64,000 nucleotides of DNA from Pseudomonas sp. HS6 (lineage in GTDB: Bacteria; Pseudomonadota; Gammaproteobacteria; Pseudomonadales; Pseudomonadaceae), in NCBI RefSeq assembly GCF_023375815.1, contig NZ_CP067412.1, forward strand, positions 4,588,001-4,652,000, given 5' to 3'. The position numbers and the translations under genes were made by a program. The notes below the pieces were generated by a model. That model had not been told where the DNA came from. It did no database searches and saw only the letters and a list, made by a program, of their open reading frames with translations. Of the stretch, positions 3,488 to 10,177 are shown one piece after another. The first letter of the stretch is position 1, and each line of letters begins with the position of its first letter.

Positions 3488-6400
3488 TCAGCCGAGGGCG
3501 GTTTTCTCCAGGTGTTCAAGGATGATCGGATACACATCGACCACCGCGTTCTTGCCGAACATGCAATCGATGTGACCGTAACCCGGCACCACATGCCGGC
3601 TATAACGCTCCGGCCCATGCTTCTCGCAAACTCGCTGATAGGTCTTGAGCGTGCTTTCCGGCAAGTAGCACTGGTTTTCGGCGCCGCTGATGAAGCAGAT
3701 CGGCATGGTCAACCGGTCGAAGTGCGGCATGTACACATCGTTGCCCTTGAAATCCACCAGATGCCCTTTGCGCACGATCAGCGCCAGGTGCTCGAAGGTC
3801 TCGATATTCGACTCGCCGAACAACTCGTGCAGGTTGTCGTGCAGGGTTTCGTTGAGGGTGTCGTGGCGGTACAGCGAGGCGTACATGAAGGTGATGCGGT
3901 GGCACACCGGATTGGTGCAGTAGCCCTGGGCTTCAATCCGCGCGTAGCCGTTGAGGGCCTTGTCGTAGAGCTTGTTGAACCAGTTCTCCTTGCTATCGGC
4001 GTAGGCGGTCATGGATTTGATGCCGATCGCATCGAGCACCCCCGGCAGGTGCAGACCAGCCTTCAGGCCCGTTGCGGTCGCGACCACCGTGTCGGCGGCA
4101 ATCTGCGAGCAGACCACCGAACGCACGCCCTGCAAACCGGCCAGCAACGACATGAAGAACGTGGTCGCACCGTAGCAATGCACTACACACTGCACGTCTT
4201 TCGCGCCGGTCTGCTGCTGGATCTGTGCGATGGCAGCCTTGAAGTCGTACTGGGCGATTTGATCGCCATTCCATTCCTTCTTGCTCGCCGGCAGCAGGAT
4301 GCTCACCCGGAAATCCAGTAGCCAAACGTCGTAGTCGTGCTTGCAGAGAAATTCGAGCAGATTGGTCTGGATGGTGTCGGTGGAAAAGATGTTCGAGCCC
4401 ACACCCAAGCCATGCACCAGCATCACCGGGCCTTTGCTGCCGGCCTGATAGCGGCTCAGGCGCAGTTCCACGCCATCCTCGGTGGGGAAGAAATGCACAT
4501 CCGGCGTCGGCGCATCCAGCGGCCGCTTCAAGCGTGGCGGTGCGTCGGGGTTGAAGTACTTATCACCAGCGAATACCCCGCCGTAGCTTTCCCAGAGAAT
4601 TCCGGCGAAGAACTTGCCGAACCGCGCCAGCCCTTCAATGCGCTCGCGCTCGTTGCGCGCATTGAGGACTTTCATGGTGGTCATCTGCTTGGCGAAATCG
4701 GCCGGTTTGATGTGCATCACCCCGGAACCGATCACCTCGCCGGTTTTGTCCGGTCCACGGTAGAGCGTCACGTAAAGGGTGCTGGTGTCGTGCCAGATAT
4801 TCAGCACGCCGTTGTCTTCCGGCACGGTTTTGAACGCACTGAAGAAATAGTCGTGGCCGTCCTCGGCGGTCAGCTTCATGTCGTATTTCATGTGACGAGT
4901 GTCGACCTGCTGCTCGAATTGCTCGAACAGGTTGAACACGCCGTTGCTGGCGGTCAGCGGTTCTGGCGACAGCGCCGGGGCGCTCACCGTACCGACGATG
5001 GTCGCCGCATGTTCCGGCTCCTTGATCATCCGGTTGAGGTCGTTGGCGGTGATGGTCAGGGTGAAGTCGATCGGCGAATTATCCGCCTCGCCACGTTTGG
5101 CCGCCGCTTCGTAGACCTTGAGGTCGGTGCTCTGCGCGGCGGTGAAAGCCCGGGAAAAATAGCCCTTCATGGTCTCGGTGAACTGCACGCCAAGCGTCGG
5201 CGGCGCGGTCTGTTTACGCGGTGCCGACGGCAGCGTGTAGTCGATCTTCCAGCCCCGGTCAGCGGCCAGCAGGCCCATGTTGCGTTCGCTCACGGCGGAG
5301 ATGGTCAGCAGCGGGTTGACCGCCAATGACGTCGGGATCACCGCGCCGTCAGTCACGTACAGGTTGGCGTAGACATCGGTGCCACTGGCACCACTGAACA
5401 CCTGGCCCTTGTGGTTGACCACGCCTTGCGCGGCGTCTTCGCCCATCACGCAACCGCCCAATGGATGCACCGAGACGATGCTGTGCTTGAGCAACTTGGT
5501 CCAGATCGGATTCTCGACCCAGATCCCGCCCAATGCCTGGGTGCTCTGGTGCAGGCGTTCGTTGCCGATCTTGAAGTTTTCCTGTTCGCCAACGCCCGGC
5601 CAGTCGATGCGCAGCTGATCCTTGTTATCGAGGACCATGCGCCCCTGACCGCTGTCGTGGCTCATGATCAAGTAGGTCTGCATGTTGTGCAGCGCGCCGT
5701 AGTACGGGCCGCGCAGGAAGCTTTCGGCCTCGCGCTCCTTGTACTTCACTTTGCCGCTGAAACTGTTGTCGGTGGCCACGCCGATCATCTCGGCGAACCC
5801 GGCCATTGCCGGCACCATCGGCCGGCCCAGAGCACCGGGAATCGAACCTTCCTCGATGACCATGCGGCTGCGCCAGTCGCCTTCGGTGCGCATATCGATG
5901 ATCGAGGTGATGCACGGGCCGACGGGTTTCATTTCCTTGGCCGAATGCGCGCCGAACCCGATGCCGTTGATGGTTTGTTCGCAGTTGTGGCCGAAACCAA
6001 GGATGTCACCGTTGCCGCTCATGTTCTCGCCGAGTTGGCCGGACATCGCCAGCCCCTTGTCCCGCGAGCGCAACAAAATCTCGGTGGAACCGAGGGTGCC
6101 GGCGGACACCACGACGATGTCGGCCTTCACGAACAGCGTCGGCGCGTCGAACTTCTCGCGACCGCTGTCCAGGTACTGAAAGTGCACGATCCAGCCATCG
6201 CCATCGCGCTCCAGATGCCGTACCTGGGCCTGGCAGATGATCTCGGCGCCATGGTTGCAGGCGTCCGGCAGGTAGTTCATCAGCGTGGTGTTCTTGGCCT
6301 TGTTGTTACAGCCCGAAACGCAGTCGCCGCAGTGATTGCACGGCAGTTGCTCGACACCGACGTGGTTAAGGTTGTTCGGCAGTTTGTCGAAGGTCACGTT

Positions 6401-6940
6401 GATCGGCGGCGTGTAGAAGTGCGCGCCTTGTTTGAGGAAATCCGCGGATTTTTTGTTGGCGTCGAGCTTGGGCAAATTCGGCGCGGTACTCGGGTAAGGA
6501 TTGGGTTTGAGCATTTCCCGGGCGCGGGCGTAACCCTCCTTGAGCAGGGTGTCGCGGTGTTCGCGCACTTCCTGCGGCCAGCGCGGGTCGTCGAAGACGC
6601 CGGGCTCGGGTTCCAGCGAAACGTTGGCATTGATCAGCGACGTGCCACCGAGGCCACAGCCAACCACCACGTTCTGCTGCGCGTTGACGTGCAGATCGAA
6701 CAACCCGGTACGCGAGCCGATGTGGCCGTCCGGGTCGTTTACCTGCAACTCCTCGGTCGCGGCGATCATGGTGTTGGGGTATTCGCCAGGCTGGATTTCC
6801 CGACCGCGCTCCAGCAAACACACCTTTTTACCGGCCCGGGACAGGCGCGACGCGGCAATGCCGCCGCCATACCCGGAGCCGATGACGATCACGTCGTAGT
6901 GTTCCTTGATGTCGCTGATGGGCGTTGCGATCCGTGTCAT
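3488..6940 (-). CDS. GMC oxidoreductase fused to alpha/beta-hydrolase
   Basis: A 1150-residue two-enzyme fusion. Residues 1-600 are a glucose-methanol-choline type flavoprotein: the FAD-binding GSGYGGG at 21-27, CGLGGTSLINANV near 95, and a C-terminal VSVHPLGGC with the usual active-site His. A four-cysteine cluster, CNHCGDCVSGC (Cys 201, 204, 207, 211), looks like an iron-sulfur ligand set. A linker of about 200 residues (600-800) is of the kind seen beside cholesterol-oxidase-like enzymes. Residues 838-1150 are an alpha/beta-hydrolase with LVHGLGVG as oxyanion loop, VVHCYGATT as nucleophile elbow (Cys 922 where most have Ser) and GYGHID carrying the catalytic His. It is the first gene of the trio. 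A sterol- or fatty-alcohol-like substrate is a guess. Confidence 0.85.
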   Translation of the reverse strand: MTRIATPISDIKEHYDVIVIGSGYGGGIAASRLSRAGKKVCLLERGREIQPGEYPNTMIAATEELQVNDPDGHIGSRTGLFDLHVNAQQNVVVGCGLGGTSLINANVSLEPEPGVFDDPRWPQEVREHRDTLLKEGYARAREMLKPNPYPSTAPNLPKLDANKKSADFLKQGAHFYTPPINVTFDKLPNNLNHVGVEQLPCNHCGDCVSGCNNKAKNTTLMNYLPDACNHGAEIICQAQVRHLERDGDGWIVHFQYLDSGREKFDAPTLFVKADIVVVSAGTLGSTEILLRSRDKGLAMSGQLGENMSGNGDILGFGHNCEQTINGIGFGAHSAKEMKPVGPCITSIIDMRTEGDWRSRMVIEEGSIPGALGRPMVPAMAGFAEMIGVATDNSFSGKVKYKEREAESFLRGPYYGALHNMQTYLIMSHDSGQGRMVLDNKDQLRIDWPGVGEQENFKIGNERLHQSTQALGGIWVENPIWTKLLKHSIVSVHPLGGCVMGEDAAQGVVNHKGQVFSGASGTDVYANLYVTDGAVIPTSLAVNPLLTISAVSERNMGLLAADRGWKIDYTLPSAPRKQTAPPTLGVQFTETMKGYFSRAFTAAQSTDLKVYEAAAKRGEADNSPIDFTLTITANDLNRMIKEPEHAATIVGTVSAPALSPEPLTASNGVFNLFEQFEQQVDTRHMKYDMKLTAEDGHDYFFSAFKTVPEDNGVLNIWHDTSTLYVTLYRGPDKTGEVIGSGVMHIKPADFAKQMTTMKVLNARNERERIEGLARFGKFFAGILWESYGGVFAGDKYFNPDAPPRLKRPLDAPTPDVHFFPTEDGVELRLSRYQAGSKGPVMLVHGLGVGSNIFSTDTIQTNLLEFLCKHDYDVWLLDFRVSILLPASKKEWNGDQIAQYDFKAAIAQIQQQTGAKDVQCVVHCYGATTFFMSLLAGLQGVRSVVCSQIAADTVVATATGLKAGLHLPGVLDAIGIKSMTAYADSKENWFNKLYDKALNGYARIEAQGYCTNPVCHRITFMYASLYRHDTLNETLHDNLHELFGESNIETFEHLALIVRKGHLVDFKGNDVYMPHFDRLTMPICFISGAENQCYLPESTLKTYQRVCEKHGPERYSRHVVPGYGHIDCMFGKNAVVDVYPIILEHLEKTALG

Positions 6941-7320
6941 GAGGTGGTTCCTCTCTCAGGCAGATGGGGCAACTCTGCGGTTGCCTGCTATCAATGGGCG
7001 AACGGGCACCTGGCCCCCGGTTTCGGCGGCAGTACAGCGGTGTGGGCGATATCGACTCGCTAAAGGCGGGCGTGCTGATTGGCGGTGCGACGCAAGGTGC
7101 GCTTGCGCGGTATCGGGGCTGAAAACGCGCGGAGCGTGCGGGGATTGAGGGGTGAGCGATGTGGCTGGGTATCCATCACGCGTTCTCCCTGAACCAGATG
7201 TGGATAAGTGACGGCGGTCCTTGTGCCATTGGAGTGAAGACAGCGGCCGGATTGAAGTCAAGGCAGCGCTTTAGAACTGTATGAAATCTGACCAATTGCC
7301 ATTTGGACTATAACCGGCGG
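6941..7320. other. Gene-free leader region of the GMC operon
   Basis: No credible gene lies here. It must hold the promoter of the GMC-hydrolase operon, but I cannot pick a convincing -35/-10 pair. A perfect inverse DnaA box TGTGGATAA sits at 7199-7207, just outside the repeat array. Confidence 0.5.
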
Positions 7321-7900
7321 GGCTTGCAGGGTTTGGCGAACAAGTTATCCACATAGCCACCCACAGCAAATGGGGACAACTGTGGATGACGTGGAAAAAT
7401 AGTCGGGGTTTTGTGAAGAAAAACCGTGACTTATCCAGAAGAAGGGTTTCTTGCGGCAATTGGCTGTTTTTTGATCACAACTCTGTAGATCACGTACGAC
7501 GTGGCTTGCAGAGGATGGCGAACACCTTATCCACAGAAGCGCCAACAGAGTTCGGGGGTAACTTGGCGGGTGCTGTGGAAAAGCGCTGGAGGCCTTGATA
7601 AATCTTGGTTTGCGGGGGAATCGGTATGTTAAAAGGCTGAAATGATCGTTTTTTGATCAAGTTCTCGTAAGCCATGTTTTATATGGCTTGTAGCGGATAG
7701 CGAACATCTTATCCACAGAAGCGCCAACAGAGATTGGGGGCAAGTTGGGGAGTTGTCCTGGGGAAAAACTCAGGAAAAACCGCGAGTTAGGCTGGTTGTT
7801 TTTTGATCTTAGGGCTGGAGGGCTTGACTGGCGTGGGGTTCAGGGATGGGCGAACACGTTATCCACAGATCCGCCAACAGGGATTGTGGGTAATTAACGA
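7321..7900. repeat. Tandem ~182-bp repeats with DnaA boxes
   Basis: Four related units begin with GGCTTG at 7321, 7503, 7685 and 7821. Each contains GCGAACANNTTATCCACA (perfect DnaA box TTATCCACA at 7345, 7527, 7709 and 7859), then in most units GCCAACAG and a G-run, later a GGAAAAA/GAAAAACCG block, and TGTTTTTTGATC or CGTTTTTTGATC near the end (about 7465, 7648 and 7797). The first two spacings are exactly 182 bases and the third is 150, through an internal deletion. Near matches (TTATCCAGA at 7431, TGTGGATGA at 7381) lie in unit 1. No reading frame is conserved across units, so it is non-coding. Confidence 0.8.
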
Positions 7901-7924
7901 ATTGGGAATGGCTAACGATCGCTG

Positions 7925-8167
7925 CCCTCACCCCAGCCCTCTCCCGGAGGGAGAGGGGGCCGATCGAGTTGCCTAACCAAGCTACATCGACCTGAACGAT
8001 CACAGTGACCTCTGATTTGATCAAACTACGGTAAGGCAAAGTGATTGATGCTTGGCGAACCAAGTTCACCGCTGAAGTCGCAGGTCGATGTAAACAGCCA
8101 GTTCAACTCGGTCAGTCCCCTCTCCCTTTGGGCGGTCCGACGTTTCGGGAGGGCTAGGGTGAGGGGG
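7925..8167. repeat. Terminal-inverted-repeat element (MITE-like), copy A
   Basis: CCCTCACCCCAGCCCTCTCC at the left end is mirrored by GGGAGGGCTAGGGTGAGGGG at the right. The core carries CATCGACCTGAA and AGGTCGATGTA, found again in the elements at 30388 and 48582. No transposase is encoded. It abuts the 3' end of etfB. Confidence 0.7.
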
Positions 8168-8176
8168 CTTTGGCTC

Positions 8177-8947
8177 TCAGCGGACAACGCCTTCTTCGAT
8201 CAGCAGCTTGAGAATGGCTTCAGCACCAGCCTGTGCAGTGACACCTTTAAGTACCTGCCCCCCACCCCCACTAGCCTTCGCCGTAGCCGCCTTCATCCGG
8301 TCCGCCCCGCTCTTGGCCTTGATCACCTTCAACCGTTTCGGCCGTGGCTTGGCTGGTTGCAAGGTCGACACCGCAAGCAATTCGTCATCCACCACTACCA
8401 CGTCTTCAGCCTGCAAAACCCCACGTCGCGCCGGGCCGTAAGCACTCTGCCGAGGCTTGGGCGCAGCGTTATCTACAGTTGCAAGAAACGGAAGGCGCAC
8501 CTTCAACCGACGGCGCTGCCCGCGAGGCAACGCTTGCAGCACCAGCGCCGAGCCGTCGCTGATCGATTCGACCTGGGCCAGACCCACCACCAGCGGCCAG
8601 CCCAGCCCTTCGGCCAGCAGGAACGGCAGCATCCCCGAGCCTTCGCCGGTTTCCGCCTGGCTGCCGGTCAACACGACTTGGGCGCCGGCATCACGCAGAT
8701 AGTCGGTCAACGCCGGCAACGCATCGGCACCGGCGGGTTGTTCCAGCACATGCATCTGTGTAAGCCCCATGCCCAGGTAGGCGCGCAGCGCCGGTTCGCC
8801 AATGTCGCCGGCATGCAGCACTTGCAGGTTATCCCCCGCCAGTTGCAGGCCCAGTTCGACAGCGCGTGCATCCTGTTCGGCGCGACGCGGCCGGCCCGAG
8901 GTCGGGTGGGCGCCGATTGAAACCAGACTGATGATCTTTGTGCTCAT
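8177..8947 (-). CDS. etfB: Electron transfer flavoprotein beta subunit (dimethylglycine cluster)
   Basis: A 256-residue ETF beta-type subunit, which with the alpha subunit next door would carry electrons from DgcAB towards ETF-quinone oxidoreductase. The region GSQAETGEGSGMLPFLLAEG is the counterpart of the beta-subunit signature that holds the AMP or FAD phosphate, and PRGQRRRLKVRLPFLATV matches the conserved domain III entry. It is the last gene of the minus-strand dgc operon, nine bases after etfA, at the place of PA5401 in P. aeruginosa. It is divergent from the housekeeping EtfB, suggesting a dedicated ETF. Confidence 0.85.
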   Translation of the reverse strand: MSTKIISLVSIGAHPTSGRPRRAEQDARAVELGLQLAGDNLQVLHAGDIGEPALRAYLGMGLTQMHVLEQPAGADALPALTDYLRDAGAQVVLTGSQAETGEGSGMLPFLLAEGLGWPLVVGLAQVESISDGSALVLQALPRGQRRRLKVRLPFLATVDNAAPKPRQSAYGPARRGVLQAEDVVVVDDELLAVSTLQPAKPRPKRLKVIKAKSGADRMKAATAKASGGGGQVLKGVTAQAGAEAILKLLIEEGVVR

Positions 8948-8956
8948 AACCGTTCC

Positions 8957-10177
8957 TTAAGCCGCATCGCGCTTGGCTTCGTTGCGGTAAGCCTCTACCG
9001 CCGCGATCAAGGCCTGAAGAATGTCCGCGCTTTCGCCAATCACCGACAGGTCGGCACGCTTGATCATGTCGCAGCCCGGATCGAGGTTGATCGCCACCAC
9101 CTTGTCGCAGGCACCAATGCCTTGCAGGTGCTGGATCGCCCCGGAAATCCCCACGGCCACGTAAACCCTCGCCGTGACCCAGGTGCCGGACGCGCCGACC
9201 TGACGGTCACGGGCCATGAAGCCATCGTCCACCGCCACCCGCGAAGCGCCTTCGGTGGCGCCGAGGGCGGCGGCGGTCCTGTGGAAAAGCTCCCAGTCCT
9301 TGACCCCATTGCCGCCGGAGAAAATGAACTCGGCTTCGGCCATCGGAATCGCCGACGGATCCACCGCTACGGCGCCCAGATCCTCGATCCTCGACAGGCT
9401 GCGCGCGACAGGTGTGGATAACTCCACCGGCAGTGCTTCGTGACGGGTTTCGCTGACCGGTTCGGCACATTCGGCCGAGGCCAGAATCAGGCGCGCGACC
9501 GGGCGGGCGAGATCCTGCAACCCGGCACCGGCGCGGCCGATGCACTCCTGATCTTTGACCTGCCACACCCGTGTCGCCGGGCGCTCGCCCAGTGCAGCGG
9601 CAAAGCGCCGACCGAGTTCGCCGCCACCGCTGCGGCTGTCCGGCAGCAGCCAGTGACGCGGGTTGAACTGGTTATCCACAGCCCGCAGGCCCTGGATCCG
9701 TTGTTCCGGTGCATAACCACTGAATTCTTCGCCTTCCAGCACCAGCAAGCGGTCAACGCCTGCCGTGGCGAAAGCGTTTTCCTTATGCTCGCCGAACACC
9801 ACCGCCAGCACGGCGCCGTCGCTGCCGGCCAGTTGATGGGCCAGGCCGAGCAAATCGCGGTCGTGGCTGCTCAAGCGGCCGCCGACCATGTCCGGGACCA
9901 CGCTGATGTAGAACGCCGGAGCCGGCACCTGATGCAACGGCAATTGCACTTCGACCGCTGCCGAACGTTTGACCGCCCCGCCCTGCTGGGCGCCGCTGCG
10001 GTCGATGCGCTTGATGCCGTTCGGCCCGATGAAGCCGATGCCGTGCAGGTTCTTGCGGATGATCCCGTTCGGGCCCATCCAGCTGTGTTGCGCCGGTTGC
10101 ATGGCCGCATGCAGCGGGTGCAGGCGGTTGCGTGCGATCCATTCGGCGCGTGGGTCGCGGCGGATAATGTCGCTCAT
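8957..10177 (-). CDS. etfA: Electron transfer flavoprotein alpha subunit (dimethylglycine cluster)
   Basis: A 406-residue ETF alpha subunit. The C-terminal FAD domain is clear: FSGGNGVKDWELFHRTAAAL, then RQVGASGTWVTARVYVAVGI and SGAIQHLQGI, closing with the NLDPGCDMIKRADLSVIG stretch. The N-terminal 75 residues form a basic extension not seen in housekeeping EtfA. Its ATG overlaps the dgcB stop by one base (TGATG), which indicates translational coupling. It corresponds to PA5400. Confidence 0.88.
   Translation of the reverse strand: MSDIIRRDPRAEWIARNRLHPLHAAMQPAQHSWMGPNGIIRKNLHGIGFIGPNGIKRIDRSGAQQGGAVKRSAAVEVQLPLHQVPAPAFYISVVPDMVGGRLSSHDRDLLGLAHQLAGSDGAVLAVVFGEHKENAFATAGVDRLLVLEGEEFSGYAPEQRIQGLRAVDNQFNPRHWLLPDSRSGGGELGRRFAAALGERPATRVWQVKDQECIGRAGAGLQDLARPVARLILASAECAEPVSETRHEALPVELSTPVARSLSRIEDLGAVAVDPSAIPMAEAEFIFSGGNGVKDWELFHRTAAALGATEGASRVAVDDGFMARDRQVGASGTWVTARVYVAVGISGAIQHLQGIGACDKVVAINLDPGCDMIKRADLSVIGESADILQALIAAVEAYRNEAKRDAA

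Follow-up and report, generated by a model that had tools for sequence, protein, structure and literature searches.

What is a tandem array of DnaA boxes doing in the chromosome of Pseudomonas sp. HS6, with no replication gene at its side? The control of DnaA outside oriC has been worked out mainly in E. coli. The window analysed here is a stretch of 64,000 bp, positions 4,588,001-4,652,000 of a single-contig genome of 6,547,752 bp (G000). A window scan places exact TTATCCACA boxes at 7345, 7527, 7709 and 7859 on the plus strand, 182, 182 and 150 bp apart, and at 7199 on the minus strand. This is what an earlier, sequence-only reading of the window had reported, and that reading took the array to be possibly a functional DnaA locus of the datA or DARS kind. 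The array is intergenic, lying between etfB (8177-8947, minus strand) and a GMC-type oxidoreductase gene (3488-6940, minus strand), both names being readings of the translations. The reading was also correct about the surroundings: there is no replication gene among the neighbours whose translations were read.

The array is not a product of chance, and it is conserved in Pseudomonas. When one mismatch is allowed, TTATCCACA occurs 23 times in the window, as opposed to 6.1 +/- 2.8 times (maximum 16) in 100 dinucleotide shuffles. Nine of the 23 near-matches fall within 7199-7893. Across the whole genome, the array is the 1-kb segment with the highest density of exact boxes (five). The runner-up places have four, and one of them adjoins dnaA. 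A repeat search recovers a 67-nt unit in four copies, three of which are 66-72% identical to the reference copy. When the 601-bp array was used as the query in a DNA-level search of its own genome, only 11 short, weak matches were returned and no second copy of the array was found.

Conservation was followed from etfB, which was found in 32 of 57 sampled genomes with the own genome counted. At 24 of the 32 loci, array boxes are located on the downstream side of etfB. Among the others, the array of G017 sits 11-12 kb from etfB, the contigs of G034 and G004 end before the array position, and G026, G022, G003, G012 and G008 have no array near etfB, G003 and G012 being single-contig genomes. Box order, orientation and spacing are largely kept, while the distance to etfB varies by kilobases. 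The divergent members G001, G024 and G025 have just two exact boxes left in the array. Since so many relatives keep it, the array is probably a replication-timing control element.

What kind of element might it be? One clue is the geometry of the units. An offset scan was run on 89 exact array boxes from 24 genomes, selected by TTATCCACA and place alone. The 24 loci were hand-picked from the 32, the eight exceptions above being left out, and each has two to five exact plus-strand boxes. The best second box is the one on the opposite strand at +26 (z -5.9). The same offset, +26(-), ranks first in a hand-picked set of 12 divergent genomes with 42 boxes, where +12(+) ranks eighth of 526. An ACA 3' end occurs at -11(+) in 85 of the 89 boxes, at +12(+) in 84 and at +26(-) in 42; the next offset has 20. 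When the unit is read on the minus strand, this becomes box I at 0(+), box II at 14(-) and box III at 26(-), plus a fourth site, IV. Two segments that the earlier reading had listed as common to the units can be placed in this scheme: GCCAACAG coincides with the weak second DnaA site, and TTTTTTGATC is part of the Fis-like 15-mer described below. A further shared segment on that list, GAAAAACC, also falls on the unit.

In the window, the four minus-strand cores lie at 7334..7379 (IV 7334-7342, the strong box III 7345-7353, II 7357-7365, I 7371-7379), 7516..7561 (IV 7516-7524, III 7527-7535, II 7539-7547, I 7553-7561), 7698..7743 (IV 7698-7706, III 7709-7717, II 7721-7729, I 7735-7743) and 7848..7893 (IV 7848-7856, III 7859-7867, II 7871-7879, I 7885-7893, with the sequence TTACCCACA). 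Boxes III, II and IV are read on the plus strand and box I on the minus strand. The exact minus-strand TTATCCACA at 7199..7207 stands outside unit 1, 146 bp away. A reverse box 146 bp before a plus-strand box is also found in six relatives (G016, G019, G035, G005, G010 and G011), and in G011 this pair sits 1.5 kb from the other units.

The geometry has a counterpart in E. coli. With at most one mismatch allowed, the bioD-uvrB gap of MG1655 has boxes at 1208+, 1222- and 1234- of L215, and the rppH-mutH gap has boxes at 1636+, 1650- and 1662- of L216. Both triplets, chosen by hand out of 6 and 10 matches, have the arrangement 0/+14/+26. Their assignment as DARS cores I-III is our own and agrees with the head-to-head I-II boxes that a review describes as characteristic of DARSs and functionally essential (PMC10380432). 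Both DARS spacings, 14 (head-to-head, I-II) and 12 (head-to-tail, II-III), recur in the array cores, and the loci are non-coding in both organisms. However, the resemblance is not complete. The Pseudomonas locus has four cores in a phased tandem array. Its strong box is III and its box II is weak, often GCGCCAACA or CCACCCACA (at sister locus B, NNTTCCACA or similar), whereas box II is the perfect one in E. coli DARS1. The units also have the extra site at -11 (IV), for which E. coli DARS1 and DARS2 showed no counterpart. The pair found for E. coli datA, 1407+ and 1419- of L217, has an offset of 12.

Another clue is a 15-mer that accompanies every core of the arrays examined. Two proteins, Fis and IHF, were tested by consensus against the unit. 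The degenerate Fis consensus used was GNNYRNNWNNYRNNC. It matches beside all 91 array cores of the 24 loci, the offset being -65 for 72 cores and -66 for 19, against a background of 0.00234 per position in the same loci. In the window the Fis-like 15-mers are GTATGAAATCTGACC at 7279..7293 (unit 1, offset -66 from the strong box), GGCTGTTTTTTGATC at 7462..7476 (unit 2), GATCGTTTTTTGATC at 7644..7658 (unit 3) and GGTTGTTTTTTGATC at 7794..7808 (unit 4), the last three at -65. There are 55 distinct 15-mers among the 72 sites at -65; variation between them spares the outer G and C, the YR steps and the A/T centre. A partly overlapping set of at least 120 stretches from named genomes was also examined, and of the 330 cores counted there 260 match the Fis consensus at -65 and a further 55 do so at -66; with different margins the count was 325 cores, 255 of them with the match at -65. 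By its consensus, the 15-mer is a probable Fis site. A stricter form of the consensus is quoted in PMC10380432, and according to the same review E. coli DARS2 requires Fis. However, neither E. coli DARS1 nor DARS2 showed a Fis-like site at -65.

The IHF consensus gave a different result. At any one offset, WATCARNNNNTTR occurs beside at most two of the 91 array cores and two of 31 others. IHF is used by E. coli DARS2; its sites are listed for DARS2 and not for DARS1 in passages of PMC10380432 and PMC4585315. Relatives also keep a GAAAAACCGYGASTTA element, found in the window at 7418-7433 and 7774-7789, whose end lies 28 bp from the Fis-like site in unit 2 and 4 bp from it in unit 4, on the outer side both times. 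An FNR/Anr-type palindrome was considered for TTTTTTGATC and dropped: the consensus is TTGAT-N4-ATCAA, and GGTTG or GGCTG left halves in a 5-7-5 geometry do not fit it.

The spacing of the units suggests that they work together. A lattice of 10.77 bp accommodates 301 of 309 unit spacings to within 1.5 bp, where 28% would be expected, and eight are off by more. Each of the three gaps occupies several rungs (R=0.96), and 38 distinct spacing triples occur. The spacings cluster at 128-129, 138-139, 149-150, 159-162, 170-173, 181-184 and 192-194 bp, and the first-to-last spans are stepped too, the commonest being 514, 525, 515, 461, 548 and 536 bp. These figures come from 110 arrays with at least three cores, drawn from relatives and named genomes under looser core rules and with some species present twice. 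The lattice is itself a fit to these spacings, in period as well as in phase; a preset period of 10.5 bp gives R=0.91. As a control, the distance from the last core to the etfB stop gives R=0.41 (n=23; about 0.18 is expected at random), which is above random and indicates that relatedness inflates R values of this sort. Because spacings in different species are offset from each other by whole helical turns, the array as a whole behaves like a single phased structure. In our reading, the ladder reflects selection to hold the units on one face of the helix, which would imply cooperation between units across 130-190 bp. In three genomes from other genera of the family, paired cores lie 113 bp apart, off the ladder.

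How far does the core extend? A strict core pattern is found in 267 of 298 Pseudomonas genomes and its reversed control in none. The earlier reading had proposed a search of other Pseudomonas for the unit, and the unit is not scattered there without TTATCCACA. In a sample of the order, nine of 244 genomes have the strict pattern: three of six in the same genus, all four from other genera of the family and two of 234 outside the family. The strict pattern misses weaker cores, as G020 and G023 carry arrays with no strict match. In the other genera of the family, seven of ten cores have the Fis consensus at -65. At least one core is present in 92 of the 120 stretches analysed from named genomes. 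Among the 80 matches listed, the 57 from Pseudomonas, including P. syringae, P. putida, P. fluorescens and P. viridiflava, all have a core, whereas 22 of the 23 from elsewhere have none. L160 (Thiohalocapsa halophila), outside Pseudomonas, has a single core-like triplet with no Fis consensus. Sites like TTATCCCAG-N5-CTGTGGAG-N5-CTGTGGATAA in G062, G095, G113 and G129 (3.5-5.0 Mb; 4 of 149 genomes) are possibly another DnaA-box arrangement.

The array is not the only place in the genome with such cores. A strict core search of 15 genomes, all but one of them relatives, finds the pattern in 12, and the reversed control again gives 0. Three loci are present in nine of the 15: locus A is the array, locus B a lone core and locus C a further core. 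In the own genome, locus B is L084 537-638 (G000 4,933,036-4,933,137), with box I TTACCCACA, box II CGTTCCACA, box III TTATCCACA and a Fis-like site. Locus C is L076 3405-3890 (G000 3,464,404-3,464,889), a pair of cores at a distance of 375 bp that enclose a further TTATCCACA and have Fis-like sites. In eight of nine genomes looked at, locus C is a core pair 365 or 375-376 bp apart, two distances that differ by one turn. The extra cores of G015 and G018 were called B or C by place. In B and C the boxes are there by construction, as these loci were found by the DnaA pattern alone, and just the Fis-like site is independent; at the sister and related loci the Fis consensus stands at -65 in 30 of 31 cores, L218 being the exception.

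The loci keep their distance from dnaA. In 11 genomes, the array lies 5.9-9.2% of the chromosome from dnaA in ten and 17.0% in the own genome. Locus B lies at 11.9-15.6% in nine of nine, and locus C at 9.3-11.5% in nine of ten and at 34.3% in the own genome. A large rearrangement in the own genome is therefore likely. The multi-contig genomes G011 and G023 were left out of this comparison; on one contig each, their arrays are about 556 and 402 kb from dnaA. Three of the 11 (G015, G018 and G020) carry the array on the opposite arm with respect to dnaA. For comparison, map positions put E. coli datA 10 min, DARS2 20.6 min and DARS1 32.9 min from oriC, and the relative distance of the DARSs to oriC is conserved in E. 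coli (PMC4585315). Thus the array is nearer the origin than E. coli DARS1 and DARS2, and a datA-type position, about 10% of the chromosome from the origin, is found in 10 of the 11 genomes. Here the sequence-only reading had the right direction, in that the locus is non-coding, away from dnaA and of the datA or DARS family; the type was beyond its view. The geometry is DARS-type and the position datA-like.

What if the array works like datA? In this scenario DnaA would assemble on the phased cores, with the DNA bent by Fis instead of IHF, and would promote hydrolysis of the ATP bound to DnaA soon after the locus is replicated, so that re-initiation is prevented. The early-replicated position and the cluster of high-affinity boxes are both shared with E. 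coli datA, and phasing would suit a looped complex. However, datA requires IHF (PMC10380432), whose site there has essential boxes on both sides and whose consensus has no fixed place in the array, and the datA pair has a different geometry, whereas both DARS spacings, 14 and 26 from box I, are present here. We consider a datA-like function unlikely, if worth keeping in mind. A simpler idea is that the boxes just hold DnaA, as part of an origin-biased set. The bias itself is extreme. The whole genome has 154 exact TTATCCACA boxes and 19 of the reversed pattern; 49 boxes lie in the half-chromosome eighth that adjoins dnaA and 0 in the last eighth, and none lies between 779,590 and 2,899,858, a stretch of 2.12 Mb opposite dnaA. 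Olivi et al. (2025, PMC12371093) describe a similar accumulation of E. coli boxes towards oriC, and one of their section headings credits DARS1, DARS2 and datA with a large fraction of the titration power. Their main text covers E. coli and Salmonella and does not mention Pseudomonas, which adds the 2.12-Mb empty stretch and the phased multi-core loci. There are also boxes in genes near the array. TTATCTACA inside etfB (8469..8477, plus strand), at a place where 16 of the 32 loci have an exact TTATCCACA, is a possible outlying site of the cluster. Inside etfA, TTATCCACA occurs at 9413..9421 (minus strand) and 9672..9680 (plus strand), exact in 24 and 28 of the 32 loci. The first is encoded with a TTA leucine codon, which is used in 25 of 32 loci. 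TTA is rare: seven genes of the window use it for two of their 378 leucines. A codon-conservation test of the etfA and etfB boxes gave percentiles of 0.43-1.00, a moderate result; given their exactness and the retained TTA, the etfA boxes may be selected as DNA. Plain titration accounts for the number and bias of the boxes. However, it needs neither a fixed head-to-head geometry nor a Fis-like site at 91 of 91 cores nor helical phasing, and it accounts for none of these, so we think it quite improbable as the whole explanation.

Could the array serve its neighbours instead? It does lie between etfB and the oxidoreductase gene, and a promoter or terminator under DnaA/Fis control, or a non-coding RNA, might be imagined there. 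However, the oxidoreductase gene was found in eight of the 32 stretches and the array in 24, which also disposes of the array as a promoter of that gene. As the neighbours change and the array stays, and as G017 has its array so far from etfB, this is no promoter element of a single gene. There is no Rfam match at gathering score in 6900-8300, and the module recurs beside other genes. We give a cis-regulatory or RNA role very little credence. An accessory replication origin or helicase-loading site would be consistent with DnaA sites at -11, 0 and +12, as the DnaA-oligomerising arrays of oriC have a similar head-to-tail spacing of 11-12 bp. However, no replication gene was recognised among the neighbours, and several loci per genome would amount to multiple origins; this idea seems hardly credible. 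As for a plasmid iteron or the origin of a mobile element, the array has no match among 72,556 plasmid records. The DnaA-box clusters of Bacillus subtilis and Streptomyces coelicolor are close systems too, but unlike Pseudomonas their hosts are Gram-positive.

This leaves the DARS-like reading, which was chosen because the geometry and Fis favour DARS, although the position favours datA. We put at about an even chance the proposal that the array is a chromosomal DnaA-regulating locus of a Fis-dependent, multi-core, DARS-like kind, in which reactivation of DnaA is what we infer. Its observed basis is the box geometry, the spacing of the Fis consensus, the helical ladder, conservation and position. 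DnaA would occupy all four sites of each core, box I in head-to-head orientation, and Fis would bind and bend the DNA between cores. Four DARS-type cores in helical register, each paired with a Fis-like site, could in this way form one nucleoprotein structure. The head-to-head contact would make DnaA release ADP, a DARS-like reactivation, and the array and its two sister loci would together raise ATP-DnaA in a growth-dependent manner via Fis. Counted against this are the datA-like position, the poor box II, the ACA end of box I in just 42 of 89 units, the Fis-like -65 site and site IV that E. coli DARSs do not show, the want of an IHF consensus at a fixed offset, and the change of arm in three of the 11 genomes.

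Have such loci been described before? Judged by titles and abstract openings, no description for Pseudomonas is found among the literature matches listed. The review PMC10380432 states, citing its reference 91 (probably Fujimitsu 2009), that DARS1/DARS2-like sequences are conserved in many proteobacterial species, so that source may already include single cores of the DARS type from Pseudomonas. A broader and more tentative idea, which we see as possible though on the doubtful side, is that Pseudomonas replication is timed by an undescribed multi-locus system of DnaA-Fis modules. Its main part would be a multi-core machine, in helical register genus-wide, that reactivates DnaA cooperatively and ties initiation to Fis, hence to the rate of growth, and, on both arms, to early gene dosage. 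Whichever way this turns out, Pseudomonas offers a candidate that is conserved, compact and can be deleted, and whose helical-phase rule is open to experiment. With it, how DARS/datA-type control evolved and is coupled to Fis could be tested directly in a further major group of bacteria.
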